Of a stretch of DNA of 64,000 nucleotides, positions 10,538 to 44,721 are shown piece after piece. Every line of letters starts with the position of its first letter. The first letter of the stretch is position 1. The position numbers and the translations under genes are program-made. The DNA comes from Zea mays (taxonomy: Eukaryota > Streptophyta > Magnoliopsida > Poales > Poaceae). A model generated the notes under the pieces. It saw nothing but the letters and a program-made list of their open reading frames with translations. It searched no databases and had not been told where the DNA came from. The stretch lies in assembly GCF_902167145.1 (NCBI RefSeq), contig NC_050097.1, positions 108,967,982-109,031,981 on the forward strand, in the 5' to 3' direction.

Positions 10538-12061
10538 ATGCCGCCGAAGAAGACAACAGGGCCAGGGACTGCACTTCTGCCACTAGACGTTAATCAGGAA
10601 ATGCTACGCGAAGCTAGGAGCCAGAAGAGAAAGGCTACCAGCCCAACACCTTAGGAGGAGGAGTTGGACCAAGAAATCAGGGACTTCGAAGCCATCCATC
10701 AACAGGTTCAGAAGAAGAAAGAAAAGATGCTTCGTCTCGCTGATCTCTAGAGGAAGATTGATGAGGCCGCTGAGGAAATGCGTCATCTCACCCAGGATGA
10801 CCAAGACCGAAGGCCCCAACATAGAGAGCTTCGTCAAGACAATTCATACAACGATGATGAATGGTATGATGATTTCCATCATGGCGATTTTGCTTTTGAT
10901 GATGCTTCTCCTTTGGCAGCAGAGTTGCAGGCCACCCCATGGCCCCCATCATACAAGCCACCTCAGCTTCCTATGTATGATGGGCACTCAGACCCAAAGC
11001 AGCTCCTAATGAGCTACGAGGCAACCATATCTTCATATGGGGGCAATACTGCAGTCATGGCGAAATCCTTCGTCATGGCAGTCAAAAGTGTCGCACAAAC
11101 TTGGTACTCTTCTCTCCGGCCAGGGACAATCATATCATGGCAGAAGCTCAAAGATATGCTAATCACTAGCTTCCAAGGCTTTTAGACGAAGCCAGTCACT
11201 GCTCAAGCTTTGTTTCAGTGCACGCAAGACCATGAGGAGTACTTTCAGGCGTATGTCCAAAGGTTCCTGCATCTAAGAGCACAAGCGACTACAGTGCCCA
11301 ATGAAATTGTCATTGAAGCCATGATCAAGGGGCTTCGGCCAGGACCTACGACTTAGTATTTTGCCAGGAAACCTCCACAAACCCTGGAGAAGCTTCTTCA
11401 GAAGATGGATGAGTATATCCGGGCTGATAATGATTTCCGCCAAAGAAGGGAAGAAGCATACATGTTTTCTAAGAGGACCAAGGGCTTTGGAGGAAGAATT
11501 CACCCCAGGCACGTCAGATCGATCCATAATTCCAACCCAAGTGATGACAGAGAAAGTCAACCTCAAAGGCAGCAACACAGCTCCCAGTCTTCAGGGCCAC
11601 AACAAAGCTTCTTCAGGCCACCAGCCCCAAGAGGCAGATGCGGCAGAGGCTTCGGAGGAAGATACGGAGATCAGCCCAGAAGACTATATTGCTTATTCTG
11701 CGGTGAAGACAAGGGCCACACCACAAGAACATGCCAAGTCACAATTCATAAGCAAAAGGAGATTGCTGAAGCTGAGGCACGACAGAATCAGCCGAAGCAG
11801 GTCCTACATACTGCCTCATGCTACTCTCCCTATGTCCTAGAGTATGTAGGTAATCAACAGCCTACGACCTCTATCGCTTCGGCAAGTCACTCTCAAGCTT
11901 CCTGGGCCCAGCTCCCACTACCACCACCGCTACCACCTACTCTGACCCGAAGCCAACAGCCAGAAGGGCACCAGCACGCTCAACAGCAGCGCAATTTTCG
12001 GGAGGAGTCCGAAGCTCGCATAGTCAATAGCATTGTGCCTGAATCCAAGCACATCTACTAA
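10538..12061 (+). pseudogene. Zeon-C gag, broken by four in-frame TAG stops
   Basis: One continuous frame, colinear with the intact Zeon-A gag, runs from ATG at 10538 to TAA at 12061. It holds the coiled region, the gag core (AKSFVMAVKSVAQTWYSS) and a zinc knuckle (CLFCGEDKGHTTRTC). Four TAG codons interrupt it (about 10652, 10748, 11183 and 11354). Comparison with Zeon-A and Zeon-B indicates that each was CAG. No frameshift is needed to read the whole protein, so decay here is by C-to-T change only. Confidence 0.9.
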
Positions 12062-12169
12062 AGAATATCCTACCCTTGATGTATCTTTATCTTTTCTGTC
12101 ATCTTATTTTCCTTGTATGAAAAACAAGTCACGAAGGACTGAATTTTGGTCTCATGTAATAATTGTGCC

Positions 12170-12600
12170 CGTATCATTGAGTAAAATGCTTCTTCCTAAC
12201 AGACTTCCGAAGCTACAAAAGCCGTTCCTAATGGAGCAGAGTAAGTTCCGAAGATACAAAAAGTCGTTCCTAAGCGAGCACGGAGTAAGTTTCGAAGCTA
12301 CAAAAGCCGTTCCTAAAGGAGCGTAGAGTAAGTTCCGAGGCTCCAAAGTCGTTCCTAATGGAATGCAGAGCCAAAATACCACCGAAATAGAAGGTGAAGA
12401 AGCTCCAAAGTCGTTCCTAAGGGGATGCAGAGCTTAAATACCACCGAAATAGAAGGTGAAGAAGCTCCAAAGTTGTTCCTAAGGGGATGTAGAGCTTAGA
12501 TACCACCGAAATATAAGGTGAAGAAGCTCCAAAGTCGTTCCTAAGGGGATGCAGAGCTTAAAGACTCCAAAGACGTCCCTAAGGGGATGAAGAGTCTTGG
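12170..12600 (+). repeat. Tandem repeats downstream of Zeon-C gag
   Basis: Two sets. Units of roughly 50 bp built on CGAAGCTACAAAAGCCGTTC lie at about 12205-12335. Then come roughly four units of about 62 bp (GAAGAAGCTCCAAAGTCGTT... ACCACCGAAATAGAAGGT) to about 12595. They occupy the same place as the repeats of Zeon-A and Zeon-B but have a different unit. Confidence 0.85.
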
Positions 12601-12883
12601 GTGTTCCAGTGTGGGCGTGTGTGTGTTTGGCATAACCATCATATTGCATCATATCATCGCACCATTCCGCATAACATTAAATCATACATCATATCGCATC
12701 AACAACAAAGATTGGGTACGAAGCAGATCTTAGGCAATAATTTGTTGAATGAAAATGTGCTGAGGCACAAAGCAAAACTTCAGCCAATACAATTTTATCA
12801 GGAAAATCTGTTAATAGTATCACACAACAGATTCGCCATAAAAGGGGCTTCTTTCTTTACGAAGCATGAAAAGAAGGGAAGGT
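12601..12883 (+). other. Zeon-C non-coding interior up to the CACTA junction
   Basis: This stretch is colinear with Zeon-A 22450-22774 (repeated GCATCATATC motifs, then ACGAAGCATGAAAAGAAGG). GGT at 12881-12883 is the likely 3-bp target of the CACTA insertion. No gene is visible. Confidence 0.75.
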
Positions 12884-13130
12884 CACTATACCATGACACA
12901 ATTTTAGCGTCAAACAACTGACGATAAAAATAGACGTTTTGCGACAGACAGTCTGTCACAAAATATTACCATCACACTATCTGTCGGTAGTTATTGTATT
13001 GGAGTCAACAAATCTGTCGGCAATAATGTCGAGCTATTGTGGCTGTCCATCTGTCGGTAAAACTGATTATGCGTGGCGCAAAGTCTGTCAGGAAAAAGTA
13101 GCATCAGATTGTTTGTCGGTAAATGGATGT
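12884..13130 (+). repeat. CACTA terminal and subterminal repeat region
   Basis: The terminal CACTATACCATGACAC is followed by at least six copies of a (T)CTGTC(GG) motif at about 12952, 12981, 13013, 13051, 13083 and 13112. Several are followed by TAA or CAA. In this superfamily such repeats bind the element's regulatory protein. Confidence 0.75.
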
Positions 13131-14210: not shown

Positions 14211-17200
14211 TGTGGCAGAACCGTCCGAACTATTCCAGCTTAAGTGCCTAAGTCACGCCTCGGGGGCCGTAACACACTTAAATCAGAATAACCCGTCAGT
14301 CCCTCAGATCTAGTCTGATAAAGGCACTTAACCATGATCAAATACCACAATCTCACACGAAGGTGAGTCACAGAAGAAATATAATAAAACATGAAACCTC
14401 AAATTAAAGTACTGAATTATTACATAAATTGGAGTTTTTCAAGTTGCTGTTAAGAGTTCATAAAATAAGATGCAGCGGATAATCGATGTCGTCGATAGCG
14501 AGGAAATGGGCAAGGCCTAGCCAACTACTCCTCGTGCTCCTCTCCTGCCGGAGCAGCATCCCACTCGACCGTCCAACCCGGTGGCAGGGTGGTAGGCCAA
14601 GTCACACCATCAACCATATCCTGAAGCGTACCTGCAAAAATTATGCCACAAGCAAGGCTGAGTATACTAATACTCAGCTAGACTTACCCGATTTGAGGAA
14701 TCTACTCCTCTACCTCTAGACCATGCAGCTGTTTGGCTGAGGGGTTTGGTTTGCCAAAAGCACTAGCTGTTTCTAAAATCAATTTTTAGCTTTTCAAATT
14801 CTAGCATCATTATCTTAGCTAAGTTTGCTCCTTCTAAGCATACATGGTAACAAGCATTTAGTACAATCAACAAATTATCTCATGTAACCTCATTTCACTT
14901 CTTACTCAATATAGTACAAGGGGTCAAGCAGTCTCATTAGCTGCGAGAAGCAGATGATTCGAATCGAGTTTTTATCCTTGCAAGGTAAACCTAAACACAC
15001 GACATGTTAGGGCACTCCGTCCCCACACATGTCAACCGTCCCCATCGATTCCCCGTTCGCGTCCAGGCCTCAACACCTTGGCATACAATGCTCCACTAAC
15101 CTCGGCTGCCGTCGTGCAGTGACCACACTTGTACCCACCATAGCTAGCATGGGAGACCCAGTCTCAGGTCACGTGAGGGATAAAGTCCGCGCCCGGCTTC
15201 ACTCAGGTACTAGGTTTATCGGTTACCATATTTCCGAACATGTGCTTAGTACGTTCAAAAGCTTGACTCAGGTATCCACACATTAATCCTTAATTCCTTT
15301 TTCCCGTCTCATGGACAAGGCATCCTCCCTGGATCCAAGTCCATAGACTAACATATGTCCCGTTATCAAGATGAATACAATCAATTCCTGAACTCTCGCG
15401 AGTGCTAGAAAATCACTCGACTTCTACCGAGATCCTGATTAGCAAAGCAGCTACTTGACCTAGCATACTAGTATCCATCTCAAAAAGGAATCCTAAGTTC
15501 ATGCAACTAGAGGTTTCTAGCAACTTCTATACTTAAGTGCACAATACAATCCTACAAGCATTAAGTGTACTAAAGTAGCATATATAAATACAGTCATGCA
15601 TAAAACTGGGGCTTGCCTTCAATAGCTGGGGCTGCAGGGAGATCCTCGATGGTAGCCTCGGGAGCTTGCTCCTGGTCTTCCTCTTGGACAGTTCCTTGCT
15701 CGGGGATGAGCACGTACTCTCCGTCAGCGAGATTACAATCTAATGAATGCAGTGAGTAAGATACATGCATGATATGATATGTGCTTTAGCAATAAAACTT
15801 TGATGGTGAATGATCCACTTAAATCAGATAGAGTTTAATCTTGCTACTAAAGATTTTTGGTGGTATACTTAGTATTTTAGATCACACTCAGTTAATCTAA
15901 GTGGGTTTGAACTACAAGTTGTCTTAATAAATTTCCAAAAATTCTGTAAAAATTACAGTGGCTTCTTACTGGTGTATAATTCTCTGTCCTAAAATGTGGG
16001 GCTTAAAGAGTGAATAGTTCTCTCTGGATAAAATTATCAAACTTTAGGGCAGAAAGGGGTGTTTTGAACTACAACTACCTTTTAATAGTAGGTTATTCTC
16101 TAGGACTTATTTTTGCTGGCATTTAGATGTTATGACATGACTTTGTACAAACGTTTAGCCACTAATATCCTTTAGTTATTTTACTATGATTTTCTAAAGT
16201 TTCTAGTCAAAGGGGTGCTTTCTACTACCACTATATTTGAAAAATATTAAACAACAAATTTCTGATTTTTCCTAGCTTCTTCTTTGTGCAAGAGCAATCA
16301 TTCTGAAGTTTGGAATCTTTTTGCTTGAGGGAAGGGTGGTAGGAATTATTTGGATTAAATGGCCTTTTTCATGAAGTATGGCAATGGGTATTATTTTGCA
16401 GCTTCCAATTGAGTTTTGCATTTTTCTCTGGTGGCCTATCTCATTATTGATCTAGTAAAATTTTATTTGCCCTATGTTGCACCATTTTTGGGTTGCTTAT
16501 GATTTAATTGAAATATGACACATTATCAAGTTCTATTTGTTTACCCTACCTAAAATAATGGGCTGGGGTGTTGATCATTTTTGTAGTGGAGTTCTAGTGG
16601 TTACAAGTCCACTGGATTTTTATAATTAATTTTGAAATTATTTTTATAATTCTAATAGTTGTTTTTCGTGTTTGATTAATGCCTAATAAAACATTTCACT
16701 TTGATTCTGTTCTGGACTAGAGGTCCCTTTATTTTTCCTAGGTTCTATGTTACTTAAGTAGGCTAGGAAAAATAATTGCACTAGCTGTTTATTATTTTCT
16801 AATGCCTTTCTGATTTTCCTAAGTTTTGGGCCGGGATGGCTTTTAATAGATATCCCTACTTAAATTTTCAATACTAGAGTTCTCACTATTTTTAAACAAT
16901 GTTTAAATGGGGTTTGAACATCTACAAATTTTCTTAGGTTCAGCACAGAAGCATAACTAATTTTCTTTAATTTAATAAGGTTTGGTCAGTTTCTGTATTT
17001 AATTCCAAACTCTAAATCTTAAAACAGAAAGCATGGGGTTCAGTATTTTTAATTGGTAGTCCATAATATTTAGAATACATCAAAATTGGTTTGACATTTT
17101 TTGGTTAAATATTTCTCAAGTTATGAATTTCCTAAGTTCTCTGTTCATTAAAAAGATTAAACAGAAATGATTAAATGGGAAACGACTTTGCATCGGGGTC

Positions 17201-18756
17201 CCTGGCGGGTGTTTTCAATTTCCCTTACAGACTAGTCCTTGGGTTACTATTCAAATGTGTCACTGACAGTTCAGAAAACCCCCTAGAGTTCCTCTAAACC
17301 TAACCCGAGGTCCTTCCCCCAATTAAACAGTTCCCGCGGCGGAGGAAAGGGGGAGGGGCTTACCGGCGGCGAGACTGCTCCGGTGAGGTGGTCGAGGGTG
17401 TAGGGGAGGTTCTGAGGGTCACGATGATGTGCGGGTCGCCGTCGGGGATGGTTGGAGTCGGCCGGTCCACGTGCGTAGGCGGGGGAGCTCGTCGGCGGCG
17501 AGGAATCCGGCCTATCCAGGGCACAATTGATCAATCAAATGGGTCAGAGAGCTTCACCAAGGATCAAGGAAGGTATGTGTGCAAGGAATTGGAAAAAGAC
17601 TCACTGGATTGCTCGGTCCACGCGTGCAGGCGGGCGACCGAAGTCTGGCGAGGACGATCTCGGGCCTCCGGTGAAGTTCTGCCGGGTCCGAGAGCTAGGG
17701 AAGCTTCACAAGCTATTGGCGAAGCTAGCCGAGCGGCTGGCGTGGCTTGGAAGTGACTGGAGTGGGCTGGCCATGGTGGCTGGGGCTCGGGTGGCAATGG
17801 CGGGCGGAAGAGAGCTCGCCGGAGCTAAGGAGGGGCGTTTGGCCGGCGAAGGTGAGCACGGGGTGAGGTGAGGCGCGCCCGGGGAGGCTTTATAGGCGCG
17901 GGCGAGCATGACCGAGGGTGAGGCTCTGACAAGTGCTCGGGGCATGCGCGGGCGAACGCCAGTGCGCGCTCTGGCGCCTGGCACGGCGTCGAGCACGATG
18001 CAACGTAGAGAGAGGTCGAGTTCAAGCGTGGATTGGCTCCAAATCTTTGAGATTATGGCCATGATCCCGTTGAGAGATCTCTTCCCCTGACATTCCTTTG
18101 TCGTTTGTGTGTGGAGGCTTGCAGGTTTTGCTGACTGGATGAAGAGATAGAGAGGGGAGAAATCGAGTTTGTCTCACTGCCGCGCATAGAAAGAAGATCC
18201 CGGGTTTGACATGTCTAGAGCACGCATCTCGATGCCATCTTCTGATATGAGGTAGAGGGATTAGTTAGGCACATTTTTGTCAATGGGGTCATTAGGATTT
18301 GAGCTAGGGATCAAGGTGAACACGCTCGGTCTTTGGCTCAAGGGCTGAAATTCAGAAATCTGAATTTCAGAAATCCCTAATGAACCTCCACTTGAGAAGC
18401 TTCTTTGGAGTTTTTATTAAATTATTTTGGCCAAGCTTCCATAATATTTGTTGTAGCTTATTTAGTATATTTCAATGTTTATAATTGGCCTAAGCCATGA
18501 TTTTATATTTTTCATGGTCTTTTACCCCTTCTCTTTATGTCTACTTAGATAGCTTGATTAGGGTTGGTGTTAGGGTTTCAACATTTTCCCCCTTTTTGAA
18601 AATCTTGTTTGTTTGGAACATGATTCTTTAGATATACACTTAGTAGATTTTTCATTCTTAAGTTAATTTGATACTTCATGCTCAATTTGGCTCACATGAA
18701 ATGTTGATTCTTGGGTTAGCACTGAGAGAAACCCTAGGTGACACTGGGGTGTCACA
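14211..18756 (-). repeat. 3' LTR of the Tekay chromovirus (uninterrupted copy)
   Basis: A 4,546-bp repeat colinear with 47748-49697 plus 57038-59627. The middle is AT-rich. A GC-rich promoter block (17290-18030) holds a minus-strand TATA box. Frames inside it (for example 17388-17871) are duplicated in the other LTR and show no domain, so I do not call genes. Confidence 0.92.
17888..17894 (-). promoter_or_regulatory. TATA box in the Tekay 3' LTR
   Basis: TATAAAG on the minus strand within CGCGCCTATAAAGCCTCCC, matching the 5' LTR copy at 58763-58769. In this position it would drive transcription leftward out of the element into the CACTA sequence. Confidence 0.65.
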
Positions 18757-18772
18757 GCCTTCCCCACTTAAA
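18757..18772 (-). other. Polypurine tract of the Tekay chromovirus
   Basis: On the minus strand AAGTGGGGAAGGC directly precedes the 3' LTR start (TGTGACACCCCAG). It is followed on the plus side by a CGGGGCGAGATTCC motif typical of this lineage. Confidence 0.8.
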
Positions 18773-19663: not shown

Positions 19664-19668
19664 CTGTT

Positions 19669-20324
19669 TGTTGGGGGGCCTTCGTCTTCCGAAGGTCCTC
19701 AAAAACACGATTAACAATGTTTCCCAAGTATAATATATGTACAGGAACCTTCGGACTCAGAATGAAGCTGTACACAATATGAAAAGCATGATCAGGACGA
19801 AGGTTGAATCAATCCCGAAGCTACGCACAGGGAAGCTTCGGCTCAGCAGCAGAAAATGGAACCGACTTAAAGAGGAAAAGCCTATCTAGTCCTCAATAGA
19901 TTGTCCTTAAGTCCATAGTAAACATAAAGGGCATGAATGTAATTTTACATAGGCTACGCCCTGTGTCTATAAATAGATGAACAGTATCCCCGTACTGTTC
20001 ACGCTGACTTGGCATTCGCTTTTTGCATCACGCCCGTACCTTTATTTTCCGTCAAACCGAAGGTACATTTGTAATTTGTTATTGTGAATATGATAATGCA
20101 AATAAAAGGGAGTTGATGATAATGTTTATATTATTTTTCCTATCCTGTATATAAATCTTTCCTCGTTGTTTATTGTGCTCATGAAAGCTTTTTCTTCACA
20201 ACCTTCGTCCGAAATTCATTATATCCGAAGGGAAATAATGTTCTGAAGGACGAAGGGGTTTGATATTTAACATTTTATGTTGCCTTGTTCTTAATTCATA
20301 GCATTTGAGAACAAGTCACCAACA
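19669..20324 (+). repeat. 5' LTR of Zeon-A
   Basis: 656 bp, TGTTGGGG...CCAACA. It contains TATAAATA at 19968-19975. The U5 end is followed by the primer site. Confidence 0.95.
19968..19975 (+). promoter_or_regulatory. TATA box of the Zeon-A 5' LTR
   Basis: TATAAATA, conserved in all five Zeon LTRs of the window (10107, 19968, 26689, 50011 and about 56659). Confidence 0.75.
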
Positions 20325-20343
20325 TTGGCGCCCACCTCCGGTG
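20325..20343 (+). other. Primer-binding site of Zeon-A
   Basis: TTGGCGCCCACCTCCGGTG begins directly after the LTR. The TGGCGCC core is the type seen in Tat/Athila-lineage elements. The exact tRNA is not certain from sequence alone. Confidence 0.75.
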
Positions 20344-20397
20344 AACTCACTTCCATTTCTTGAGCTTTGAACATCTTCGGCAAGCATCACCTTTGTC

Positions 20398-21915
20398 ATG
20401 CCATCGAAAAAGGCTTCAGCGACAGGGGCTACCACTCTGCAGCCGCTGGACCCCAATCAGGACGTCCTTTCTCTTAGGGAGGCCCGAAGCCAGAAGAGGA
20501 AGGCCACCAGTCCAACGCCTCCGGAGGACGACTTGGACCAGGAAATCCAAAACCTGGAGATGCTCCATCAACAGGTGCAACGAAAGAAGGAGAAGATGGC
20601 TCGTCTGGCTGATCTCCAGAGGCAGATAGATGAAGCTTCGGAAGAGGTTCGTCATCTTGCTCAGGATGACAAGAACCGAAGGCCTCCGCGCAGAGAGCTT
20701 CATCAGGAGGGCTTCTACAATGAGGATGACTGGTATGAAGATTTCCATCATGAAAATTTTGCTTTTGATGATGCTTCTCCTCTATCAACAGAATTGCAGG
20801 CTACACCATGGCCCCAGTCTTACAAGCCACCCCAGCTCCCCATGTACGACGGTCATACAGACCCAAAGCAATTCTTGATGAGCTATGAAGCAACCATATC
20901 TTCGTATGGTGGCAATACTGCAGTCATGGCAAAGTCTTTTGTCATGGCCGTCAAGAGTGTCGCTCAAACCTGGTACTCCTCTCTTCGGCCAGGGACAATC
21001 ACCTCATGGCAGAAGCTGAAGGATATGTTGATAACCAGCTTCCAAGGGTTTCAGACAAAGCCAGTTACTGCTCAAGCTTTATTCCAGTGTACCCAGGACC
21101 ACGAAGAATACCTTCAGGCGTATGCCCGAAGGTTTCTGCGTCTGAGGGCACAGGCGCCAACAGTGCCCAATGAAATTGTCATTGAGGCCATGATTAAGGG
21201 ACTTCGGCCGGGACCTTCAGCGCAATACTTTGCCAGGAAGCCACCACAAACTTTGGAGAAGCTGCTCCAGAAGATGGACGAGTATATCCGAGCTGATAAT
21301 GACTTCCGCCAAAGAAGGGAGGAGGCATTCAGGTTCTCTGAAATGACCAGGGGCTTCGAAGGAAGATTTCATCCGAGGCACGTCAGGTCAATTCATAACT
21401 CCACTCAAAGTGATGATAGAGGGAGCCAACAGCAAAGGCCACAATACTCTTCGCAAGCTTCGGGTCAACAACAAAGCTCTGTTCGGCCGCCAGCGCCAAG
21501 GGGCAGAGGCGCCAGGGGCTTCGGGGGAAGATTTGGGGATCAGCCAAGAAGAATTTACTGCTTATTCTGTGGTGAAGACAAGGGCCATACCACCAGGATG
21601 TGCCATGTCACCATCCAGAAGCAAAAGGAGATAGCAGAAGCTGCAGCACAACAGAGTCAGCCGAAGCAGGTCATGCACACTGCTTCGTACCATTCGCCTT
21701 ACATTCCAGAATATGTAGGCAATCACTCTGCAGCTTCTGTTGCTTCGGCAAGTCAACCCCAAGCATCTTGGCAACAGCCTCCACCGCCACCACCAACGCA
21801 GCGAGGTCAACAGCCAGAAGGGAGTCATCACACTCATCTTCAGAGGGACTTCAGAGAGGAGTCCGAAGCTCGCACAGTCAATAGCACTGTGCCAGAGTCG
21901 AAGCACATTTACTGA
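20398..21915 (+). CDS. gag: Zeon-A Gag (intact)
   Basis: 505 codons, with no stop or frameshift. The ATG is the first one after the primer site in this frame, and the same start is kept in Zeon-B and Zeon-C. Gag proteins assemble the virus-like particle and package the RNA. Residues about 45-85 are charged and helical (coiled-coil-like: HQQVQRKKEKMARLADLQRQ). The gag core (AKSFVMAVKSVAQTWYSS, SWQKLKDMLITSFQGF, YIRADNDFRQRREEA) spans about residues 150-320. An Arg/Gly-rich stretch precedes a zinc knuckle with C388, C391, H397 and C402. Its spacing is CX2CX5HX4C, one residue longer than the classical CX2CX4HX4C. The C-terminus is Gln/Pro-rich. The ORF stops without entering a protease; no pol follows. 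Confidence 0.93.
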   Translation: MPSKKASATGATTLQPLDPNQDVLSLREARSQKRKATSPTPPEDDLDQEIQNLEMLHQQVQRKKEKMARLADLQRQIDEASEEVRHLAQDDKNRRPPRRELHQEGFYNEDDWYEDFHHENFAFDDASPLSTELQATPWPQSYKPPQLPMYDGHTDPKQFLMSYEATISSYGGNTAVMAKSFVMAVKSVAQTWYSSLRPGTITSWQKLKDMLITSFQGFQTKPVTAQALFQCTQDHEEYLQAYARRFLRLRAQAPTVPNEIVIEAMIKGLRPGPSAQYFARKPPQTLEKLLQKMDEYIRADNDFRQRREEAFRFSEMTRGFEGRFHPRHVRSIHNSTQSDDRGSQQQRPQYSSQASGQQQSSVRPPAPRGRGARGFGGRFGDQPRRIYCLFCGEDKGHTTRMCHVTIQKQKEIAEAAAQQSQPKQVMHTASYHSPYIPEYVGNHSAASVASASQPQASWQQPPPPPPTQRGQQPEGSHHTHLQRDFREESEARTVNSTVPESKHIY

Positions 21916-22179
21916 CAGATATCCTATCTCAACAACAGTTTTTTCACATTTTCACATTCAGTATTACTTTTTTGTTAATAAGGAACAATTATGGGAAGTC
22001 TAAGTGTCTTTTATCGTTTTTCAATTTCTTGTAACAGTTTCGCCTTTTGCCATAATGAAAATATATCTTCTCCATAGGCTTGAGTTGCCGAAGCATAAGA
22101 ATTTATGGTGGCACGAAGGACCTTTGAATTATCAAAAATTTGTTCTAAGGGACACAGTGCAATTTATTTGAAGCAGTAA

Positions 22180-22440
22180 AAAGTCGTTCCTAAGGGAGCG
22201 CAGTGTAAGTTTTCTGAGCCTACAGCGAAAAATAAGCGCTGATTCCGCTGAAAGTAAAAGGCGAAGAAGCTCCTATGGGAGGCTTACAGCGAAAAATAAA
22301 CGCTGATTCCGCTGAAAGTAAAAGGCGAAGAAGCTCCTAAGGGAGGCTTACAGCGAAAAATAAACGCTGATTCCGCTGAAGTAAAAGGCGAAGAAGCTCC
22401 TAAGGGAGGCTTACAGCGAAAAGTCAGCGCTGATATAAAA
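22180..22440 (+). repeat. Tandem repeats between Zeon-A gag and antisense gene
   Basis: About three near-perfect copies of a 64-bp unit (CGAAGAAGCTCCTAAGGGAG... GCTGATTCCGCTGAAAG) lie in the non-coding gap where the two genes converge tail to tail. The rest of 21916-22916 is AT-rich and shows no gene. Confidence 0.9.
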
Positions 22441-22916
22441 AGATTGTGTGCTCTATTGCAGAGATGTGTGTATCTTCGGCACAAATATCATTTTGCATAA
22501 CATAACATCATCACATCATTTTGCATAACATAAGCATCATACATCATATTGCATGTGGAACAAGAAGGGGATACAATATTGATCTTCGGAGAATGTTTTG
22601 AAAAAGAGAAAATCGTGCTAAGGCACGAGATAAATTGAGAAGAAGTGTAGCTTCATTAGAGAGAAGTATGGAGAATGTTTTCACAAAGCTTGGATATTCT
22701 TCATCAGAGAAGTATGGAAATTGTTGTGATATATAAAAGATTTTCTTCACGAAGCATGAAAAGAAGGGAAGGTGTTTTTTCGCCGAAGGCTAAAAAACGG
22801 TATGTATGCAAAATTTTCATGCATCGTAAAGAATTCAACCATAAATAGATTATATATTACATTCAAAGTTACAAAGTATTACACATGTTACATTCCAAAT
22901 GTTTTTACAATAGCAT

Positions 22917-25900
22917 TTAATCTTCCCTAAGAACTACTTCTGCAGCTTCGTTCAGTAGCTGATCGACAACTTTGTCCATGATGGCTTCGGCCATTTTTCT
23001 AATTTCATCGTCCCCCTTCGGGTGGGGGCCCGAAGATGCCTCAGCAGGTTCTGAGGGAGGAGAAGATACGGCTATATTACTATTACAAACCGCGAACAAA
23101 GTTTGAAATCAAAAATTACAACAGAATAAAAACCACTAGTTAATACCTATTTGCCCTTCGGGCTCTGCGCTTTTCTCAGCAGCCTCTGCTACCTTCCTAG
23201 CATCATGGATGCCTTTTTCACTTTTTTGAATGATTTCTTGAGCCATTTCTCGGCCGCCATTGTCCCAGATGTCGGTGAAAATTTTTCCACCAACCAGGCT
23301 TGCTTCGGCCGAGGGGTCCTTTACATCTTCGGAAGACAAGACAGTTTCAGATTGCGCTAAAGATTTCACATGATCACAGCCTTTTCCTTCCAAAACAGTA
23401 GCAATCCCCCTAGCGCCTAAAAAAGCACATATGTCTCCGCGGCTATTCAAGATTTCCTCGAAGGCCTCAGCTTCGTGGCTGATCCATTCAATCGGGCCTT
23501 CTGGATTCCCCCTTGTGAAATTTTCTTCGCTAGAGAATGCGCCAACGCTAGCGAAGCTGGATTTTATCTTCTTAACGCACTCTATGGATTTATCATAGCA
23601 CCTTTTCTTGGAAGCACGAAGCTCTTCAACATTTATTTCCAAATGATTTGCCCATTGATCACTAAGTTCTCGTTTTGTTTCTTCAAGTATGCGTTCTTCT
23701 TTAGCTCTGGCCAGCTGTTTCCGAAGATCCTGAATTTCGCGTTTTTGGGCTTCAGCTTGAGCCTTAGAGGTAGCTTCGTCTTCCTTTATTTTGTCCACCA
23801 GTGTAAGCAGAATTTTATCTTTTTCCAAAGCTTCGTTTCTCAGCTTAATAACCTCTGTTCGTAGGTTGTTGAAAGCAATATTATAGCTCTCGTCTTCGGC
23901 ATTCTTTTGCGCTCTCAAAGTGTTGCTCAGTATTAAACCCTATATGAAAAAAGAATTAATATAAGAATAAAAGAATGATTCAAAAATTACAAATTACCAA
24001 ATATACAATTCTCATACCTTCAGACTATTATATGCAAGGCTATCCGTAAGATCGTCCTTCGTCATAGCTTTGAGCCCAGCTTCAAGCTTCGGGAACCCCA
24101 TACTTCTAGCCATCTCCCGGCAGACAAATAATTCTTTGTTGTCTGGGAGGCAGTATAAGAAGTCATCTTCATCTATGCCGTTGAATACTAAGGCCCCTTT
24201 CGGATACTTCAGTTCTCGGGCATAGTGATTAACTTCAAAAATCTCTTCTTCAGATAATTTCTTCCCCGAAGCATGTCGTATAATATAATCATGTATTTTG
24301 GAAGATGCTTCGGGGGCAGCAGTGTCAGTTTCTTCACTCAAAATTTGTTCCGCCATTTCTGTTTTTTCAGCCTCCAAGGATTTCACCTTGGCGGGCTCTG
24401 AAGGCCCGACTTCAGTTTTAGACTGTGGTTTTGAAGCTTCGGCGTCAAAGGTTTCTGTGTGCACTTCAGAAGTTTTAGCAATTTTCTTTGGAGTTGTGCT
24501 TGAAGATTTGATTGTCTCTAAAACATCTAGCACATTTACCATCCTTTTTCTTTTAGGGGTCACTGCTGGACCCTTATGGCTTTTTGTTGCCTCAGTTTCT
24601 GCCGAAGGACTCAAGACTTCTGATGTCTTTACTTCTTCAGCCCTCGTTTCTTCAGCTCTTGTTTCTTCTATTTTTTCAGTCACTGGCACTTCGGCCAGCA
24701 CTTCAATATTTGGCAGGGGAGCTGTCTCTTTAGCTTCAGTGGCCGAAGGAGTCCCACCGACAAATGCAGGCACTGTGGCCGGTTCAATATAACGTGGCCG
24801 GTGTGTGAGAACTTTTACCCTTCTCCTCTTTGGCGCCGGCTCGCTAGGAGCGGCTGGAGCAGTTTCCTTCACCGAAGACGTATTCTTTCTTTTTTCACCC
24901 CGCGCTGGATAGCGGTAGTCGGGGTAGACAAACCCAATTGCATCAAATACTCGATTGAGCCTCTTCCTCTTTCGGCCTCCGAAGGCCGCTGATAATGCAG
25001 TATCTTCGGCCTTTGAGTATACGCCAAGCAATTCATCACTGATGGCCTCAATACTTTTTAACCAGTCATCATCCGGCTCAACGAATTTATCTCCGTATTT
25101 AAATGTGTATTTCAGCCTGACTAGTCCACCTTCGTCAGGTTCTTTAATGGTTTCCTTCGGCATTTCCCATTTTTCCACAAGTGGCCATACTCTGAAGGCG
25201 ATGTGTTCTTGGACAAAATCCCTTGTCCCAATAAAAGAGCAAACAACACCGAAGGCTCTCTGGCATTCTTCGGCTGCTTCATTCATTTCCACCTTCGGCC
25301 TCCGCAGGCCGAAGCGTTGCCAGATGGGACGCATAATGATCCTTTTTATATCTTCCCGTGATTTCAAGTCATTCTTCACGTAAAACCATTCCGTCATCCA
25401 GTCGCCGGGCCACCTCTTTTGAAAGGTAGGCACGGGGCAGCTTGACCCAGACCGGGAGCCGAAGCTGTAGCAGCCAAAATTGTTGTGATACTGTTCTTTA
25501 CTCCAGGGTTTTGTCTCGTACAACAATTCATGTATGTTGCAGAAACTTTTCGCATTAGGTTCCAAACCTTGGCTTCTCACGGCCCACACAAAGATATTCA
25601 TCCTTATGATTGCTTCGGGGGTAAGTTGGTGAAGGTAGATTTCAAATATCTTCAGTATTTCTACAACAAAACTGCTTAAGGGAAATCGTAGTCCAGCTTT
25701 CAAGAAGCTTCGGAATACCACGACTTCATTCTCCTCAGGAGTCCAACAAGTGCTATCTCCTCCAACCCTCACAATAGTCATGTCGCGGAAGTATCTTCCT
25801 CTCATAGCATCAACATGACTTTGTTTGATAGTCGATTTTCGGAAGATGGTATGGCTTGGTCGCCACAACCGATCTTCATAATCTTCATCTTCACTTTCTG

Positions 25901-26093
25901 CATCATACTCATCACTGTCGTCGGAGTCTTCAGACAGATCCGCTAGTATTTCTCTTGTAATTTTTTCTGTGTTCGTTTTTGCCATGGATTCGAAAAATCT
26001 AGCGATGAAGGGATCCACAACTTTTTTCTCTTCAAACAACTTCGTGTCCTCAGTTATCTTTGTCTCCTTAGTCATCTTCATCTCCTCAAACAT
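22917..26093 (-). CDS. Zeon-A antisense gene (aORF), three exons, about 1,007 aa, intact
   Basis: Antisense to gag. Predicted exons are 26093-24018, 23939-23147 and 23071-22917. Introns have GT-AG borders (AAG/GTATGAG...ATATAG/GG and ATAG/GTATTA...ATATAG/CC). Spliced length is 3,024 nt, exactly 1,008 codons with stop, and the frame stays open. The N-terminus is acidic (DSDDSDEYDAESEDEDYED, residues about 56-75). Residues about 110-330 resemble the Pfam 'putative gypsy type transposon' family (VVVFRSFLKAGLRFPLSSF, LHQLTPEAIIRMNIFVWAV, WFYVKND). A basic KRKR motif lies near residue 514. The C-terminal exons form a Lys/Glu-rich coiled coil (about 700-790) and a globular tail. Additional antisense ORFs at this place are known in Tat-lineage elements. 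Molecular function is unknown. Zeon-B keeps the same borders. Confidence 0.82.
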
Positions 26094-26226
26094 GGCGAAA
26101 ACACGTCTTAAAACCGAAGCTCAAAAAGCTTGAAAATTAGGCAAGAGCTGGTGAACAAGAGCTAGAAATTTGAGAAAATAATGCAAACGACAGAAATGAC
26201 GTATCAAATGTTGCCGCTATGGTTCA

Positions 26227-26234
26227 TATTTATA
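26227..26234 (-). promoter_or_regulatory. TATA box of the Zeon-A antisense gene
   Basis: TATAAATA on the minus strand, about 135 bp upstream of the antisense ATG at 26093 and outside the LTR. The matching site in Zeon-B is 56183-56190. Conservation of position suggests a dedicated promoter. Confidence 0.7.
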
Positions 26235-26377
26235 CGCCCAGTGTGTCGCGACTTGGTGGGCCCCAACAGTCATTGACTGTTGCTATTCTAGCAAAGGGAA
26301 GGTGTTTTTTGGACCTTTGGCTTAAGGCCTTCGTTCACGTCGCAATCTGAATTCGTTGTTTATAACAAATTAATACT

Positions 26378-26389
26378 GCGAGGGGCTAC
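26378..26389 (+). other. Polypurine tract of Zeon-A
   Basis: GCGAGGGGCTAC immediately precedes the 3' LTR. The same sequence precedes the Zeon-B 3' LTR. Confidence 0.75.
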
Positions 26390-27045
26390 TGTTGGGGGGC
26401 CTTCGTCTTCCGAAGGTCCTCAAAAACACGATTAACAATGTTTCCCAAGTATAATATATGTACAGGAACCTTCGGACTCAGAATGAAGCTGTACACAATA
26501 TGAAAAGCATGATCAGGACGAAGGTTGAATCAATCCCGAAGCTACGCACAGGGAAGCTTCGGCTTAGCAGTAGAAAATGGAACCGACTTAAAGAGGAAAA
26601 GCCTATCTAGTTCTCTATAGATTGTCCTTAAGTCCATAGTAAACATAAAGGGCATGAATGTAATTTTACACAGGCTACGCCCTGTGTCTATAAATAGATG
26701 AACAGTATCCCCGTACTGTTCACGCTGACTTGGCATTCGCTTTTTGCATCACGCCCGTACCTTTATTTTCCGTCAAACCGAAGGTACATTTGTAATTTGT
26801 TATTGTGAATATGATAATGCAAATAAAAGGGAGTTGATGATAATGTTTATATTATTTTTCCTATCCTGTATATAAATCTTTCCTCGTTGTTTATTGTGCT
26901 CATGAAAGCTTTTTCTTCACAACCTTCGTCCGAAATTCATTATATCCGAAGGGAAATAATGTTATGAAGGACGAAGGGGTTTGATATTTAACATTTTATG
27001 TTGCCTTGTTCTTAATTCATAGCATTTGAGAACAAGTCACCAACA
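26390..27045 (+). repeat. 3' LTR of Zeon-A
   Basis: 656 bp. It differs from the 5' LTR at six positions that I can see, mostly C/T. TATAAATA is at 26689-26696. It is followed by the TSD CTGTT. Confidence 0.95.
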
Positions 27046-27050
27046 CTGTT

Positions 27051-31295: not shown

Positions 31296-32888
31296 TGTCG
31301 GCGTTTCGACCCCGGAGGGGTCCCTGGACCAACGAGTAGATTGTCGCTGCGTGTCCCAGCCCAGATGGGTCAGCGCGAGACGGGACACAAAGGGGGGAGA
31401 ACATTAAAGGGGAACCCGCGGCCTTCGTGTTGTCCTGCGCCCAGGGCGGATGGATGCACTTGCTGTAGGGGTTACAAGCGTTCGCGTGGTAGAGAGAGAG
31501 AGAGATAGAGAGAGCGAGAGCCTTATGCGTCGGCCCGTTCTCCCGCGCGGCCAACCTCCTCGTACGAGAGCCCTGGACCTTCCTTTTATAGGCGTAAGGA
31601 GAGGGTCCAGGTGTACAATGGAGGGTGTAGCAGTGTGCTAACGTGTCTAGCAGAGAGGAGCTAGAGCCCTAAGTACATGCCGTCGTGGCAGTCGGAGAGG
31701 TTTTGGCACCCTGTTCATGTGATGTCGTGGCCGTCGGAGGAGAGCTGGAGCCCTGCGGAAGGACAGCTGTCGGGACTGTCGAATCCTTGCTGACGTCTCC
31801 TTGCTTCTGTAAGGGGCTGAGAGCCGCCGTCGTCATGGAGCACGCGGGGCGCCATCATTATTTGTTTACCGGGGCGAGCCAGATGGGACGCCGGTCTTGT
31901 TCCCCGTAGCCTGAGCTAGCTAGGGGTAGGGTAATGATGGCCCCCCCTATGATGTGGTCGGTCCGAGCCCTAGGTCGGGCGAGGCGGAGGCTCCTCCGAG
32001 GTCGAGGTTGAGTCCATCTTCCGAGGTCAAGGCTGAGTCCGAGCCCTGGGGTCGGGCGAGGCGGAGTCCGTCTTCCGAGGTCGAGGCTGAGTCCGAGCCC
32101 TGGGGTCGGGCGAGGCAGAGTCCGTCTTCCGAAGTCGAGGCTGAGTCTGAGCCCTGGGGTCGGGCGAGGCGGAGTCCGTTTTCCGAGGTCGAGGTTGAGT
32201 CCGAGCCCTGGGTCGGGCGAGGCGGAGACCGTCTTCTGAGGCCGAGGCTGTGTCCGAGCCCTGGGGTCGGGCGAGGCGGAGTCCGTCGTCCAGCGTCGAG
32301 GTTGTGTTCGAGCCCTAGGGTCGGGCGAGGTGGAGTCCGTCGTCCAGCGTCGAGGTTGAGCCCGAGCCCTGGGGTCGGGCGAGGCGGAGCTTCCTATGGC
32401 ACCCGAGGCTGGACTTAGCTGATGTTAGCCTCACTCTATCAAGTGGCACAGCAGTCGGAGCGACGCAGGCGACGCTGTTTTCTTGTCAGGTCGGTCAGTG
32501 GAGCGGCGAAGTGACTGCGGTCACTTCGGCTCTATCGACTGAAGAGCGCGCGTCAGGATAAGGTGTCAGGCGATCCTTGCATTAAATGCTCCTACGATAC
32601 GGTCGGTTGGCGTGGCGATCTGGCCAAGGTTGCTTCTCTGCGAAGACTGGGCCTCGGGCGAGCCAAAGGTGTGTCCGTTGCTTGAGGGGGCCCTCGGGCG
32701 AGACGTGAATCCTCCAGGGTCGGCTGCCTTTGCCCGAGGCTAGGCTCGGGCGAGGCGAGATCGTGTCCCTTGAGTGGACTGAGCCTTGACCTTAATCGAG
32801 CCCATCAGGCCTTTGCAGCTTTGTGCTGATGGGGGTTACCAGTTAAGATTAGGAGTCTTGGGGGGACCCCTAATTATGGTCCCCGACA
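31296..32888 (-). repeat. 3' LTR of the Huck-like element
   Basis: 1,593 bp. It includes a GA-rich microsatellite (about 31492-31520), a minus-strand TATAAAAG (31590-31583) and a 54-bp tandem array. Its inner edge is followed by the purine-rich GGGGGCTAC (minus strand, 32889-32897). Confidence 0.93.
31970..32390. repeat. 54-bp tandem repeats in the Huck 3' LTR
   Basis: About eight copies of a unit reading GAGTCCGAGCCCTGGGGTCG then GGCGAGGCGGAGTCCGTCTT. A 54-bp period is 18 codons, so an open frame with an 18-residue repeat appears. It is a repeat artefact, not a gene. The same array is at 45394-45800. Confidence 0.92.
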
Positions 32889-34181
32889 GTAGCCCCCGAG
32901 CCTCGAAGGGAGTGTTGATACTCGCTTGGAGGCTTTTGTCGCACTTTTTTGCAAGGGGACCGACCTTTCTCGGTTGCGTTTCGTTCCGGTGGGTGCACGC
33001 GAGCGCACCCGCCGGGTGTAGCCCCCGAGGCCTCGGAGGAGTGGTTTGACTCCTTCGAGGTCTTAGCGCGTTTCGTGATGCTTCGGCCGATCTAGTTGTT
33101 CCCTCATGCGAACTAGCCGTAGCTCGGGTGCATAGTCAAGTCCCAAGTTCTCGGGCTGGTATGTTGACGCTGTCAACGGTTTGGCTGGAGCCGAGTTTGC
33201 GAGAGCAGCCCTCGAGCCTTCGCACAGAGCGAGAGGACGGTCAAGGACAGACTCGGCTTTTTTCATACGCCCCTGCGTCACCTTTCTGCAAGGAGGAGGG
33301 GGGGGGGGGAAGCGCCATGTTGCCCTCGGAGGGCGCCGAACATGGTGTCTCCAGTGAGCTGCTAGCAGGTGATCCGAGTGGACGCCCGTGCCCCATTCGT
33401 TAGGGGTCGGCTAGTGGCCCGGAGGCGCGCTCCAAAAGTACCTGCGGGTGATTCGCCGGACCCGATCCCCTTTTGACGGGGTCCGAGGGCTCGATGCCTC
33501 CCTCTGGTGGGATTCCGTTACAAAATCGTTCCCGTCGGTCTCGGAAATGTCCTAGGGTACCTCGAAAGCGTAGCCCAAGCCTTGGTTATGTATCGAACGT
33601 ACCCAGGGTCATCCCTCGCTCTGCGTGCCCTGAGGCTGCTGTCGAACCCTTCGGGGGCCAGCCTACGAACCCCTGATCAGTAGTGGGCGCGGAGCTCGAG
33701 TGGCCTGAGGCGGCCGTTGAACCCTTCTGAGGGGCCAGCCTTCGAACCTCTGACCAGTAGTGGGCGCGGAGCCCGAGTGCTCTGAGGCGGCTGTTGAACC
33801 CTCCCGAGGGGCCAGCCTTCGAACCTCTGATCAGTAGGGGGGCTCGGGGCCCGCTTCCTTCGCGGAGAAGGATCCCTTTCGGAGTATCCCCTTTCCCGGT
33901 CCCTGTAGCAAGAGAGAGAAAGAGGAAGCGAAAAAGGATATGAAATCGAACGACGTGGCACACCTTTTTTGACGCGGTCATTATGGCGAAGGTGAAGCGT
34001 CGCCTGCTTCGCCTACCAAAGGTGCCGCCTATCCTGTCACAGAGTTAATGCGACGGGACGAGTGGTTCGCGGGGCAGCCGTTGTGCGTGCGCGAGCCGTT
34101 CGAGGAACGGGCGTCTCGCTTTGAGTTTTGAATCTCGCGGCGGGTTCGGGCGAAGTGTTGAACGGGTCTCGCCTGGGCCTT
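32889..34181 (+). other. Huck 3' spacer with tandem repeats
   Basis: GC-rich spacer between the 3' LTR and the antisense gene. It includes repeated TAGCCCCCGAG motifs, a run of about 14 G near 33297-33309, and about 2.7 copies of a 75-77-bp repeat (33630-33835, unit CTGAGGCGGCTGTTGAACCC... TAGTGGGCGCGGAG). No convincing gene on either strand. Confidence 0.7.
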
Positions 34182-34188
34182 TATATAT
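34182..34188 (+). promoter_or_regulatory. TATA box of the Huck antisense gene
   Basis: TATATAT within GGGCCTTTATATATTCGGG, about 135 bp upstream of the ATG at 34322. Spacing is the same as in the Zeon antisense genes. Inferred promoter. Confidence 0.65.
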
Positions 34189-34321
34189 TCGGGAGAGGGA
34201 CCGGTGACAGTTCTTTACTCTGCTGCTCGCCTCCCAATTAGGTTTTCGCAACCCGAGGGAATAGCCAGAGAAAGGAAACCGCGCACCTCGTCCTCTCCGC
34301 TGCCACCTCTTCTGCTTGGTG

Positions 34322-37300
34322 ATGGCCGACCGGGTGACCGTTGTTTCACCGTGTGACCCGTGGCCTTTCTCCACCGTCACGGCGGATGATCTGGAGGCCC
34401 TTGTTGTTGATGGTTTGCTTCGCCCTCTCTCCGGTGGCTCGCAGCCGGAGTGGATGGCCCCTCCGAGCGGAGCCGCCCTGTCCCCGCCGCCGGGGTATGT
34501 GCTGAGCTTCGTCTCCTTTCATGAGCGGGGGTTCGGAGTGCCGGCAAGCCGTTTTATGCGGGCGATTCTGCACGTCTACGGGGTGGAGCTGCACAATCTC
34601 AGTCCCAACTCCATCTCGCAAGCAGCCATCTTCGCGGCGGTTTGCGAAGGATATTTGGGGATTGCCCCCCACTGGGATCTGTGGACCCATCTCTTCTCCG
34701 TGGAGCTTTTTGCCTCGTCGACGGGGGAAAGAAGAGTTCACATGGAGGTGCGGGCCAGTGGCTGCATCCTCCAGTTGAGGCAGGCGCGGGCGCTGCAGTA
34801 CATCCCTGCCATCCTCGCGTCTTCGAACAAAGGGTGGCAGCACCGGTGGTTTTATCTCTGAAATGACGACGGGAGGCTCCCGTCGTTTTCTCAATGAGTG
34901 GTGACCGCCGCCGCCGATAACTGGCGCTACGGGGCCCCGCGTGAGAGACAGAAGAATCTCCAGCCCCTTTTGAAGGCCTTGGAGGAGCTGCGAGAAGGAG
35001 GGTTCACCGCCGCGGGGGTGGTTGCCGCCATTCATCGCCGAAGGGTGCTCCCCTTGACGGAGCGGCAGCTGCCGCTTTGGGAGATGACGCCGGGGGTCGA
35101 CTTGGAGGGTTTGCAGATGTCCTCGGACCCCCTTCCCGCCGACAACCTCCACAGGCGGGTAGCCGGCGCCTTTTCCCAGCTCTCGATGTGTCCCGATCGC
35201 GGGTGTGTGTCCCTGGTGAGTGTCCGCTCCTTCTTCCTTCTTGTGTCGGATTGCCCTTGGTTCTCACATTCGAGACTTTTCGTCCATCTCCAGGAGGTGG
35301 GGTTTCACAAGCCTTCCCTGCCACCGGTCCTGGAGGACGCGGTGGACCGAGCTATGCGGAGGGTTGCCGCAGAGAAGAGGAAGGAGAAGAAGGACGCGAA
35401 GAAGGCTCGGGCCCGCGAGTGGATGCGGGCTCGGGACGCCTTGGAAAGGCTTCGTCGTTGGCAGGAGAGGTATGGGCTCCCGAGGGAGCCATCGCCGGAG
35501 ATGCCTGATGACGACGACGATGATGAAGACGATGATGAAGACGACGACATGGCTGCCCGCCTCGGCCTCAGCCCGGATCTGAGGCTGGGCCAGGGGTCAT
35601 CGAGCCAGCCCCCGAGCGGGCTGGTGCCATCGGTATCCGGGGCCGGGACATCGGGGTCCCGGTCCGAAGAACGGGGGCAGGCCGAGGGGGTACTTGACCC
35701 CTTGGCCGAGGTAGTTGAGGTGACCCCGGGGAGTCAGGCCGAGTCGCCTGTTCCCCAAGAACCGTTGCCCGTGCCGACTGCGCAGGAGGGTGATCCTCGG
35801 GTCATCATGGCTGCACCTGGGCAGTCCGTCCCTCTGGTGCCTCGGGCACCCAAGGCAAGGACGGTGCCGAAGCCGGCAGCAGGGCTGACCTCGGTGGTAC
35901 CTTCATGGATCGAGGCTCGAGAGACCTCCCCACAGGCACGATTGATCATGGCCCGGAGTGGGTAAGTATCTTAGGATATCTTCGTCCTGGCTCCTCCTTC
36001 GTGTGTCCTGATCCTGCTCTTCCTTTTCTTCCCAGCAAACGGAGGCATGGTTCGACTGGTCTGGCTCCCTGGAAGGCCCTCAAAACGGCGCCGGCTTCTG
36101 CAGCTAGTGCCGCACCGGGCCTTGCCGGCCAGCTGGCCTTCTTACAAGATGCTCCAAAGCGGGGGGCCCAGGCGGCACAAGTTGCCGTGGGGCGAGCTCC
36201 CGAGGCCGACTCCTCCGTCGAGGCGGCCGTCGTGCCGAGGGAGACTGCTGGCGCGGCTACGGCCTCGAGCCCACCAGACGCGTTGCCGGCGCTGGCACCG
36301 GCTTCTGCCGAGGTGGTTGCCGTTCTGGCCGTGGAGCCACCCATCGCCGCCGACGCTGAGATGGTCGAGGCGTCGCTACTTGATGCCTCAGAGGAGGGAG
36401 GCACAGAACCGCGACCCGTCCTGGGGAGCGGCAACCTCGTCCCCGCACGGCGCAGTCCCGACGGGCGGCGTCAGTCGCTCCGGTTCTGGATCAGTGGGGC
36501 TTCGGATCCCCTCTTCGTTCTTGACGATGAGCGAGAGGAGCAGTCTTGGGACGGGCTTCGTGAGCGTGTTGAGGCAACGGTGGGGTCGCTTCGGTCGACC
36601 TTGGAGGTCCTTTGTAGGGACATTCCCAAGATCCTCTAGGTAATGATTTCAAGCATACCTTTCATGTGATCAAGGCATTCTTTGTGACGCCCCGCTTCCT
36701 TTCCTCAGGATCTGACGGATCCGAGCGCCGCCAAGTCGTCGTTCATCCGCCGCGAGGCCGATGTCTGGGGTTCGCTGCGGTCCCTGAGGACCACGCTTGC
36801 CGGGGCTACCGAGCGCCTCTCCCAACGGAGCGCCGAGGTGGCGGACCTTCGGTTGCTCTGTGTCGATCTGGGAGCAGAGGCAGCGGCGGCACGTGCAGAG
36901 GTGCAACAGCAGCAGTTGGAGCTTGGCCAGGTCATCGGTGAGCGGGACCAATCTCAGGGCCGGGCCGCCGAGGCTGAAAGCCGGGTTGAGGCTCTTGGAG
37001 TCTAGTTAGCCGAGGCGTCTGCTCGGGCCGGAGCCCTTGCAACAGACCTAGCCGTGGCCCAAGCCGCATCCTCGGAGCAGCGTGCCCGAGCCAAAGGTAT
37101 GTCTTGGCCGTTTTAAGATTTTGATTCAGCTTCGTTCCTCAACTCATGTTTGAAGTCTTCTGCTTTGGCTGTTTGCAGAGCTCGAGTCTGCCCTCGATGA
37201 GATAACCAAAGCACTTGCCCAGGCGGCCGAGCAGAGGGAGGCCGACCACGCGGCCATGTCCGAGGCCATCTCGACCTTCTGCCGGGTCTTTGGTTTCGAC

Positions 37301-37656
37301 GACGTCCCCTCGGAAAGCTCCCCTTAGAGTCGCCTGCAGGCCTTGGGTGACCACGCGCGCGGCCGACTCCGCGAGGCACTGCATCATGGCGTCAGGCGGG
37401 CCTTCGCCGTGCTCGCTTCCCACTATGACGTGGATCTGGAGCGGGTCAGCGAGGGGTACTGCCTTCCCGACGAAGATGAAGCTGCCCTGGCCGAAGTCCA
37501 GAGGCTTGAGCGGCCGCCGCGGGCCCAAGCGCGGTGCTGGCGACCACCTTCGAAGCAGAGATCCTCCCGCTTGCGCCGTCGTCCGAGACCGGGGCGGATC
37601 TCGCCGAGGGTGGAGACGAAGCCGAGGGCGCGGCTCCTTCTCCGGGCGACGCCTGA
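34322..37656 (+). pseudogene. Huck antisense gene (aORF), five exons, about 1,010 codons, decayed
   Basis: Antisense to Huck gag-pol, between integrase and 3' LTR. Exons read from the sequence are 34322-35215, 35294-35961, 36036-36639, 36709-37096 and 37179-37656. Every junction is GT-AG and the phases fit (894 nt; then 2; then 0; then 1). Exon 1 carries the Transposase_28-like region (PPGYVLSFVSFHERGFGVP, SRFMRAILHVYGVELHNLSP, NSISQAAIFAAVCEGYLGI, WQHRWFYL). Exon 2 holds a Lys/Glu-rich helix and an Asp-rich run, exon 3 an Ala/Pro-rich linker, and exons 4-5 coiled coil. Stops are TGA (34861 and 34896, likely CGA) and TAG (36637, 37003 and about 37325, likely CAG). A frameshift lies near 37530. 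Function is unknown; a gene at this place is known in Tat-lineage elements. Confidence 0.8.
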
Positions 37657-41413: not shown

Positions 41414-41416
41414 CTA

Positions 41417-44720: not shown

Positions 44721-44721
44721 C

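Follow-up and report, generated by a model that had tools for sequence, protein, structure and literature searches.

A predicted three-exon antisense TRP28 gene is under protein-level selection in gag-only retrotransposons of maize

We analysed a 64,000-nucleotide window of the Zea mays genome (contig NC_050097.1, positions 108,967,982 to 109,031,981; coordinates below count from the first letter of the window), centring on a retrotransposon, element A, that has kept gag intact, is devoid of pol and carries a three-exon antisense gene on the minus strand. Element A spans 19669-27045 on the plus strand (7,377 bp). Its long terminal repeats (LTRs) of 656 bp, at 19669-20324 (5′) and 26390-27045 (3′), are 98.9% identical across 659 aligned bp with 7 mismatches, and the target duplication CTGTT, read from the sequence like the LTR ends, flanks the element at 19664-19668 and 27046-27050; at a substitution rate of 1.3e-8 per site per year, this divergence places the insertion about 0.4 million years ago. 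The gag gene (20398-21915, plus strand; 505 codons plus stop) is open and matches PF03732 (E=6.6e-19). At the usual place of pol lies a 1,001-nt spacer with short tandem repeats (21916-22916), in which no open frame exceeds 81 codons. Two relatives share the window: copy B (49698-57032, plus strand), a collinear gag-only element with a broken antisense gene, 74% identical to A over 7,549 aligned columns and with LTRs 97.8% alike; and copy C (9797-12883, plus strand), comprising the LTR, gag and spacer of a third relative, with gag 77.6% identical, a spacer match reaching 12883 and no antisense-protein match found. The three can be aligned across the gag stop into the spacer, and B and C likewise have no pol there. 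We infer the name Zeon for element A from its structure and size, rather than from a named Zeon sequence; published Zeon elements measure 7.1-7.5 kb with LTRs of 450-750 bp (PMC5311732; this and the other papers cited are represented by the parts available to us).

The antisense gene lies on the strand opposite gag, between the coding region and the 3′ LTR and 296 bp from the latter. Exon 1 (24018-26093) begins with an ATG at 26093 and includes Met7 at 26075; it is followed by intron 1 (23940-24017; 78 nt, GT-AG), exon 2 (23147-23939), which has homologs and a coiled-coil look by eye, intron 2 (23072-23146; 75 nt, GT-AG) and exon 3 (22917-23071), all read from the minus strand. The joined exons give 3,024 nt, or 1,008 codons with one, terminal stop, matching exactly the three GT-AG-bordered exons opposite gag that an original prediction, made from the letters of this stretch, had described. 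The exon-1 frame runs for 702 codons from stop to stop, which is far beyond chance: when the internal region was simulated 2,000 times with a first-order Markov model, no frame exceeded 220 codons.

A genome search with exon 1 (2.18 Gb) gave 13,902 first-look candidates, of which 40 including A were scored; 29 of the other 39 were fetched and, with A and B, make up the set of 31 sequences used below. Both introns are present in 30 of the 31, the remaining copy being cut off. Intron 1 keeps its GT in 31 and its AG in 30, and intron 2 its GT in 30. The acceptor of intron 2 is more variable: the proximal AG (23073-23072) is found in 16 of 31 copies, with AT in 13, AA in one and one copy cut off, whereas an in-frame AG 21 nt further downstream (23052-23051), within a pyrimidine-rich stretch, is kept in 29, the exceptions being B, where the proximal one is present, and the truncated copy L020. 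Either acceptor is available in 30 of 31. Use of the distal site would extend intron 2 to 23051-23146, shorten exon 3 to 22917-23050 and yield 1,000 rather than 1,007 amino acids (aa); because more copies keep it, we think that this acceptor is commonly used and that the 1,000-aa product is at least as likely. The borders originally proposed thus stand for intron 1, whereas for intron 2 the acceptor named was the less widely kept of the two. We considered the AG-to-AT change as evidence against splicing and set it aside, since the distal acceptor explains it. The 13 copies with AT (L002, L003, L005, L009, L016, L017, L018, L021, L023, L024, L025, L026 and L030) are also more divergent in intron 2, exon 3 and the spacer. 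As to the start, ATG 26093 is common to 8 of 8 copies of a lineage resembling the 5′ end of A, and the start in B and in 29 of 29 body relatives aligns with Met7.

Protein homology gives a further view of intron 1. Three protein searches returned 273, 3,322 and 3,428 matches, of which the best 120 each were considered, and 263 proteins, mostly from genomic assemblies, were fetched. Exon-1 homology ends at the first intron-1 codon in 98 of 123 matched proteins, and in all 23 of the 263 that extend across intron 1, a divergent in-frame intron is translated through. Splicing of the antisense gene is accordingly a prediction drawn from sequence.

Upstream of the gene, TATAAATA occurs at 26234-26227, about 134 bp before the ATG and outside the LTR, in agreement with the box some 135 bp upstream that had been pointed out originally. 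It is present in 39 of 39 sequences (A, B, the 29 relatives and the 8 copies of the lineage of A's 5′ end). Within the presumed antisense promoter (26201-26389, minus strand), which is placed by the conservation of this box and by identity to B, 86 of 98 positions of the block 26233-26330 are the same in B, versus about 75% identity between the LTRs of A and B. A bacterial-type promoter scan was set aside as not relevant to plants.

The predicted protein carries a Transposase_28 domain (PF04195) at aa 125-187 (25533-25721, minus strand; E=4.7e-11, 43.2 bits against a cut-off of 26.2), the sole Pfam match of exon 1 and one found in 56 of 57 aligned sequences, A included. By this domain the gene is a TRP28 accessory gene, although element A has no reverse transcriptase for a Retand class assignment. 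Basic clusters at aa 374-381, 422-427 and 513-517 (24543-24974, minus strand) are possible nuclear signals: at least four lysines or arginines per six residues are found at the three in 56, 57 and 54 of the 57 aligned sequences, and four basic clusters in all are kept in 51-57 of them. Antisense TRP28 genes are known from Tat/Retand elements, including Grande gene23, RIRE2 and Retand ORF4 (PMC11963269, PMC7264820). Transposase_28 is reported in 97% of clusters, and TRP28 is predicted to bind DNA (PMC11963269); the related antisense protein of Grande is reported to be nuclear, with its own promoter (PMC7264820).

Coding-sequence comparison between A and B reveals strong frame dependence. The antisense gene has a nonsynonymous rate (dN) of 0.184 and a synonymous rate (dS) of 1.634, giving a dN/dS of 0.113 (bootstrap 0.097-0.149) that is rough, as are all ratios for this pair, because dS is near saturation. 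Shifted frames on the same strand gave 1.22 and 1.35, and those on the opposite strand 1.27, 1.62 and 0.261, the last in the frame that shares its third positions with the gene. Every exon contributes, with ratios of 0.114 in exon 1, 0.081 in exon 2 and 0.205 in exon 3, where two other frames gave about 1.1; identity in each of the three exons is 48-55% at third codon positions and 78-85% at the others, with the introns at 54% and 59%. For gag the A-B ratio is 0.052.

The same signal extends to the genomic relatives, for which ratios were taken over exon 1 from 25970 on and exon 2, excluding the divergent N-terminus and exon 3 and dropping L020, whose 3′ part could not be aligned. Against the 28 relatives, A gave a median dN/dS of 0.248 (range 0.185-0.413; exon 1 alone 0.279) versus 0.99 and 0.97 in the other two exon-1 frames, and among the 28 themselves the median was 0.202 over 378 pairs. 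B against the relatives gave 0.105. In exon 3, the ratio of nonsynonymous to synonymous differences per site (pN/pS) between A and two copy groups was 0.43 and 0.32 in frame, versus 0.66-0.82 and 1.16-1.24 in other frames. The corresponding gag ratios, from 20 copies, were 0.175 with A, 0.057 with B and 0.212 for the copies compared with one another. Closely related pairs (dS <0.06) had a ratio of 0.46 (16 pairs), and pairs with dS of at least 0.12 had 0.18 (207 pairs). Taken as sequence comparisons, these ratios demonstrate protein-level purifying selection on the antisense gene in pol-less elements, in a pattern of constraint while the lineage moved followed by neutral decay after insertion. 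Neither for A and B nor for A and its relatives was the ratio near 1, the value that the original prediction had named as speaking against it.

Our preferred reading, to which we give somewhat better than an even chance, is that this antisense TRP28 gene of a Zeon-type, gag-only Tat/Retand element encodes a nuclear DNA- or chromatin-binding helper of its own family. Transcription of the gene would probably rely on a TATA promoter of its own, located between it and the 3′ LTR, and removal of both introns by splicing would probably precede translation, the product having about 1,000 aa; the introns would outlast retrotransposition because the RNA that is copied is presumably read off the opposite strand. 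The protein would most likely combine an N-terminal part, bearing the TRP28 domain and basic clusters, with a coiled-coil tail through which it self-associates, and by binding DNA or chromatin in the nucleus it would raise the expression or mobility of carrier elements. Kept without pol, it may act preferentially on its own sub-family or be required in large amounts. Expression, splicing, nuclear location, DNA binding and benefit are steps that we infer.

Alternatively, the product could be an antisense RNA rather than a protein, pairing with genomic RNA to tune or silence the element. Its own conserved TATA box makes convergent transcription possible, double-stranded RNA has been raised as a possible function of the antisense gene (PMC7264820), and an exon-1 stretch (24255-24498) is conserved at synonymous sites too. 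RNA pairing, however, does not need the frame-specific constraint found in all three exons; antisense RNA alone, a role that the original prediction had also raised, fails to explain it, and we regard this alternative as improbable.

Some properties of that exon-1 stretch are described here in their own right. Between A and B, the synonymous sites of 24255-24498 show unusual conservation (87.5% in the highest 40-codon windows versus 55% overall), a level reached in 1 of 5,000 shuffles, and dN is not lowered there. The sense RNA of 24255-24400 folds with a z of -4.48 and includes an 11-bp stem whose arms (24264-24274 and 24305-24315) are exact in 25 and 24 of the 31 sequences; a 34-nt run identical in A and B lies nearby (24374-24407). 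The stretch is possibly an element of the genomic RNA. A sense open reading frame (ORF) at 24289-24792, over the antisense gene, is free of frame-changing length differences and of premature stops in 20 of 31 sequences; because it shares its third positions with the antisense gene, constraint cannot be assigned to it, and we do not claim it as a gene.

We next consider when pol was lost. For 24 copies, namely 20 of the 29 relatives plus 4 members of another lineage, we retrieved the stretch upstream of the gene. All 24 have gag and none has pol inside the element: a pol probe taken from a different gypsy element in the window gave matches in 3 of the 20 and 0 of the 4, each of the three being in flanking DNA beyond the 5′ LTR. 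In the 20 relatives gag ends 2,039-2,128 nt from exon 1 (2,106 in A), leaving no room for pol. An element reduced to gag and the antisense gene, with its enzymes dropped, was thus correctly recognized at the outset in A and is equally found in B and in these 24 copies. Pol was lost before the copies diverged; constraint therefore accrued in pol-less lineages, unless recombination misled the comparison.

Retention of the gene alongside gag in all 24 pol-less relatives examined, under similar constraint, would also suit a structural or packaging helper working with Gag in the particle, for example by recruiting genomic RNA. Such a role is in our view unlikely, given that it leaves aside the widely kept, possibly nuclear basic clusters and the reported nuclear location of the Grande relative (PMC7264820), and that a separate antisense promoter would uncouple expression from that of Gag.

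The state of the copies raises another alternative, in which the gene is a relic whose constraint was inherited from pol-bearing ancestors and which has no present role. The spliced frame is open in only 3 of 31 sequences (A, L014 and L023, the last without the proximal acceptor), exon 1 alone is open in 10 of 31, and the youngest pairs show the higher of the two ratios given above. Yet gag has decayed equally (3 of 22 frames open), and the older pol-less pairs and the A-B comparison point to constraint accrued after the loss of pol, again unless recombination misled. We consider a relic very unlikely and retain the nuclear helper.

Recombination among copies does occur, as judged from their differing affinities. 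The best other full-length match to the LTR of A is 83% identical (40 of 11,740 candidates scored), with one partial match at 87% over 544 bp; its promoter and N-terminus have one copy that is 97% identical, with no other scored copy above 93%; and other copies are at most 93% identical to its gene body. Element A thus looks like a mosaic whose LTR, promoter with N-terminus and gene body have different closest copies.

An enzyme-less element invites comparison with its presumed partner. In maize, Cinful codes for pol domains and Zeon for gag (PMC8547701). Table 1 of PMC11963269 contains two Zea mays clusters without GAG but with pol domains and TRP28; with LTRs of 585 and 587 bp and internal regions of 8,365 and 8,245 bp they total about 9.4-9.5 kb, near the 9.568 kb of Cinful (PMC3091746). 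By size these clusters are probably Cinful, so that the helper element probably carries TRP28 too; if this identification is right, both partners have kept it. The earlier suggestion that the protein supplies something the helper lacks is weakened accordingly; RNA packaging, targeting and the countering of silencing, put forward with it, are candidate roles.

Several points weigh against the nuclear-helper reading. In 15 of 31 copies intron 2 lacks its proximal acceptor, and few spliced frames are open. None of the 263 fetched proteins, among the matches listed, is a spliced product, although with the best 120 matches per search and sources that are mostly genomic assemblies this is a weak test of splicing. 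The A-B ratios are rough for the reason given, Transposase_28 is reported in only 23% of Retand elements (PMC6317226), and the nuclear role and DNA binding are argued from relatives and prediction.

A candidate target of the protein emerged from word counts. CCGAAG/CTTCGG occurs 55 times in A against 3.0 expected from dinucleotides (18-fold), 51 against 3.3 in B (15-fold) and 15 against 1.0 in C, versus 37 against 24 (1.5-fold) in the rest of the window, with the elements counted over 19669-27048, 49698-57032 and 9797-12900. LTR, gag, spacer and gene all contain sites, and these fall on either strand, in each frame and both inside and outside coding sequence. Those of A are balanced between strands (26 and 29), favouring double-stranded DNA over RNA as the target; 17 of the 24 CGAAG within the antisense coding sequence share one frame. 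B keeps 39 of 74 CGAAG/CTTCG sites of A, versus 220 of 808 other CG-containing 5-mers (Fisher p=1.3e-5). The enrichment hints at possible self-recognition. Other TRP28 elements gave a mixed picture: the second Tat element of the window has CCGAGG 80 times against 22 expected, and of six further stretches around PF04195 matches, one (L063) has AGCTCG 19 times against 1.9, three (L064, L067, L068) show weak motif signals only and two (L065, L066) mainly simple or repeat-like words.

These counts bear on a more specific possibility, that the TRP28 protein is a sequence-specific nuclear factor reading CCGAAG/CTTCGG and keeping copies of its own family open to transcription, an anti-silencing factor that would be the retrotransposon counterpart of VANC (PMC5735166). 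The abundance of the motif in A and B, the retention of its sites above background and the VANC precedent argue for it, and if true it would account for the persistence of the antisense gene in an element with borrowed enzymes. Against it, other TRP28 elements have a weaker, different or no motif, and the putatively bound motif is not clustered in non-coding tandem repeats, unlike that of the VANC system. Because the motif picture is mixed and the comparison set without TRP28 is the rest of the window only, we rate this possibility as low.

The window holds further features around these elements. A second Tat-lineage element lies on the minus strand at 31296-46309, with LTRs at 31296-32892 and 44722-46309 that are 95% alike; it encodes integrase, reverse transcriptase and RVT_3, and has a Transposase_28 ORF antisense to pol at 34265-34861 (E=1.7e-21). 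The insertion target of copy B (47748-59630) is about 96% identical to 14211-18759 of the window, which represents the unoccupied site. Sequence and profile searches of solved structures with the antisense protein gave nothing significant, candidate relatives in viral, bacterial and archaeal contigs were pattern matches of which none was confirmed, and two Rfam matches fell far under their gathering scores. A link to the plant mobile domain of MAIL1/MAIN (PMC5418596) was considered and is not claimed, exon 1 having given PF04195 alone in Pfam.

A gene kept under protein-level selection after the loss of pol behaves like gag, not like pol, and has not simply been left to a helper. The gag-only system is therefore a good place to find the function of TRP28, and the element-wide motif offers a concrete first target. 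An ORF-only survey would miss about a third of the protein, as exons 2 and 3 encode 315 of its 1,007 aa. To our knowledge, antisense accessory genes of Tat/Retand elements have been described since the 1990s with no function assigned. The word intron is absent from the main text of both TRP28 papers (PMC11963269, PMC7264820), and a literature search at the level of listings yielded no recognised report of introns in such genes or of selection on them in pol-less elements. This kind of gene and the pairing of gag-only Zeon with pol-only Cinful are already in print; what is added here is the selection in pol-less elements.

Among known systems, the antisense genes of human T-lymphotropic virus (HTLV; via PMC11963269 and PMC7264820), with which we claim no homology, resemble this gene in orientation and, if our reading holds, in having a nuclear, regulatory product; the HTLV antisense promoter lies inside the 3′ LTR, whereas that of element A would lie outside it. 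VANC of the Arabidopsis VANDAL transposons (PMC5735166), compared with the antisense protein by description only, is likewise a transposon-encoded accessory protein paired with a family-enriched short motif, but its motif sits in non-coding tandem repeats and its binding has been shown, whereas the motif of A is dispersed over coding and non-coding sequence and is a putative target. With the Zeon/Cinful system of maize (PMC8547701, PMC2774510, PMC5311732, PMC3091746), element A shares a gag-only, pol-less structure of 7.4 kb with 656-bp LTRs; the available parts of those accounts do not mention the antisense gene. With the TRP28 genes of Retand elements it shares PF04195, an orientation antisense to gag, a position beside the 3′ LTR and a presumed promoter of its own, and differs in that its carrier is gag-only and the gene is laid out in three exons, whereas the published genes, in the parts available, are described as ORFs.

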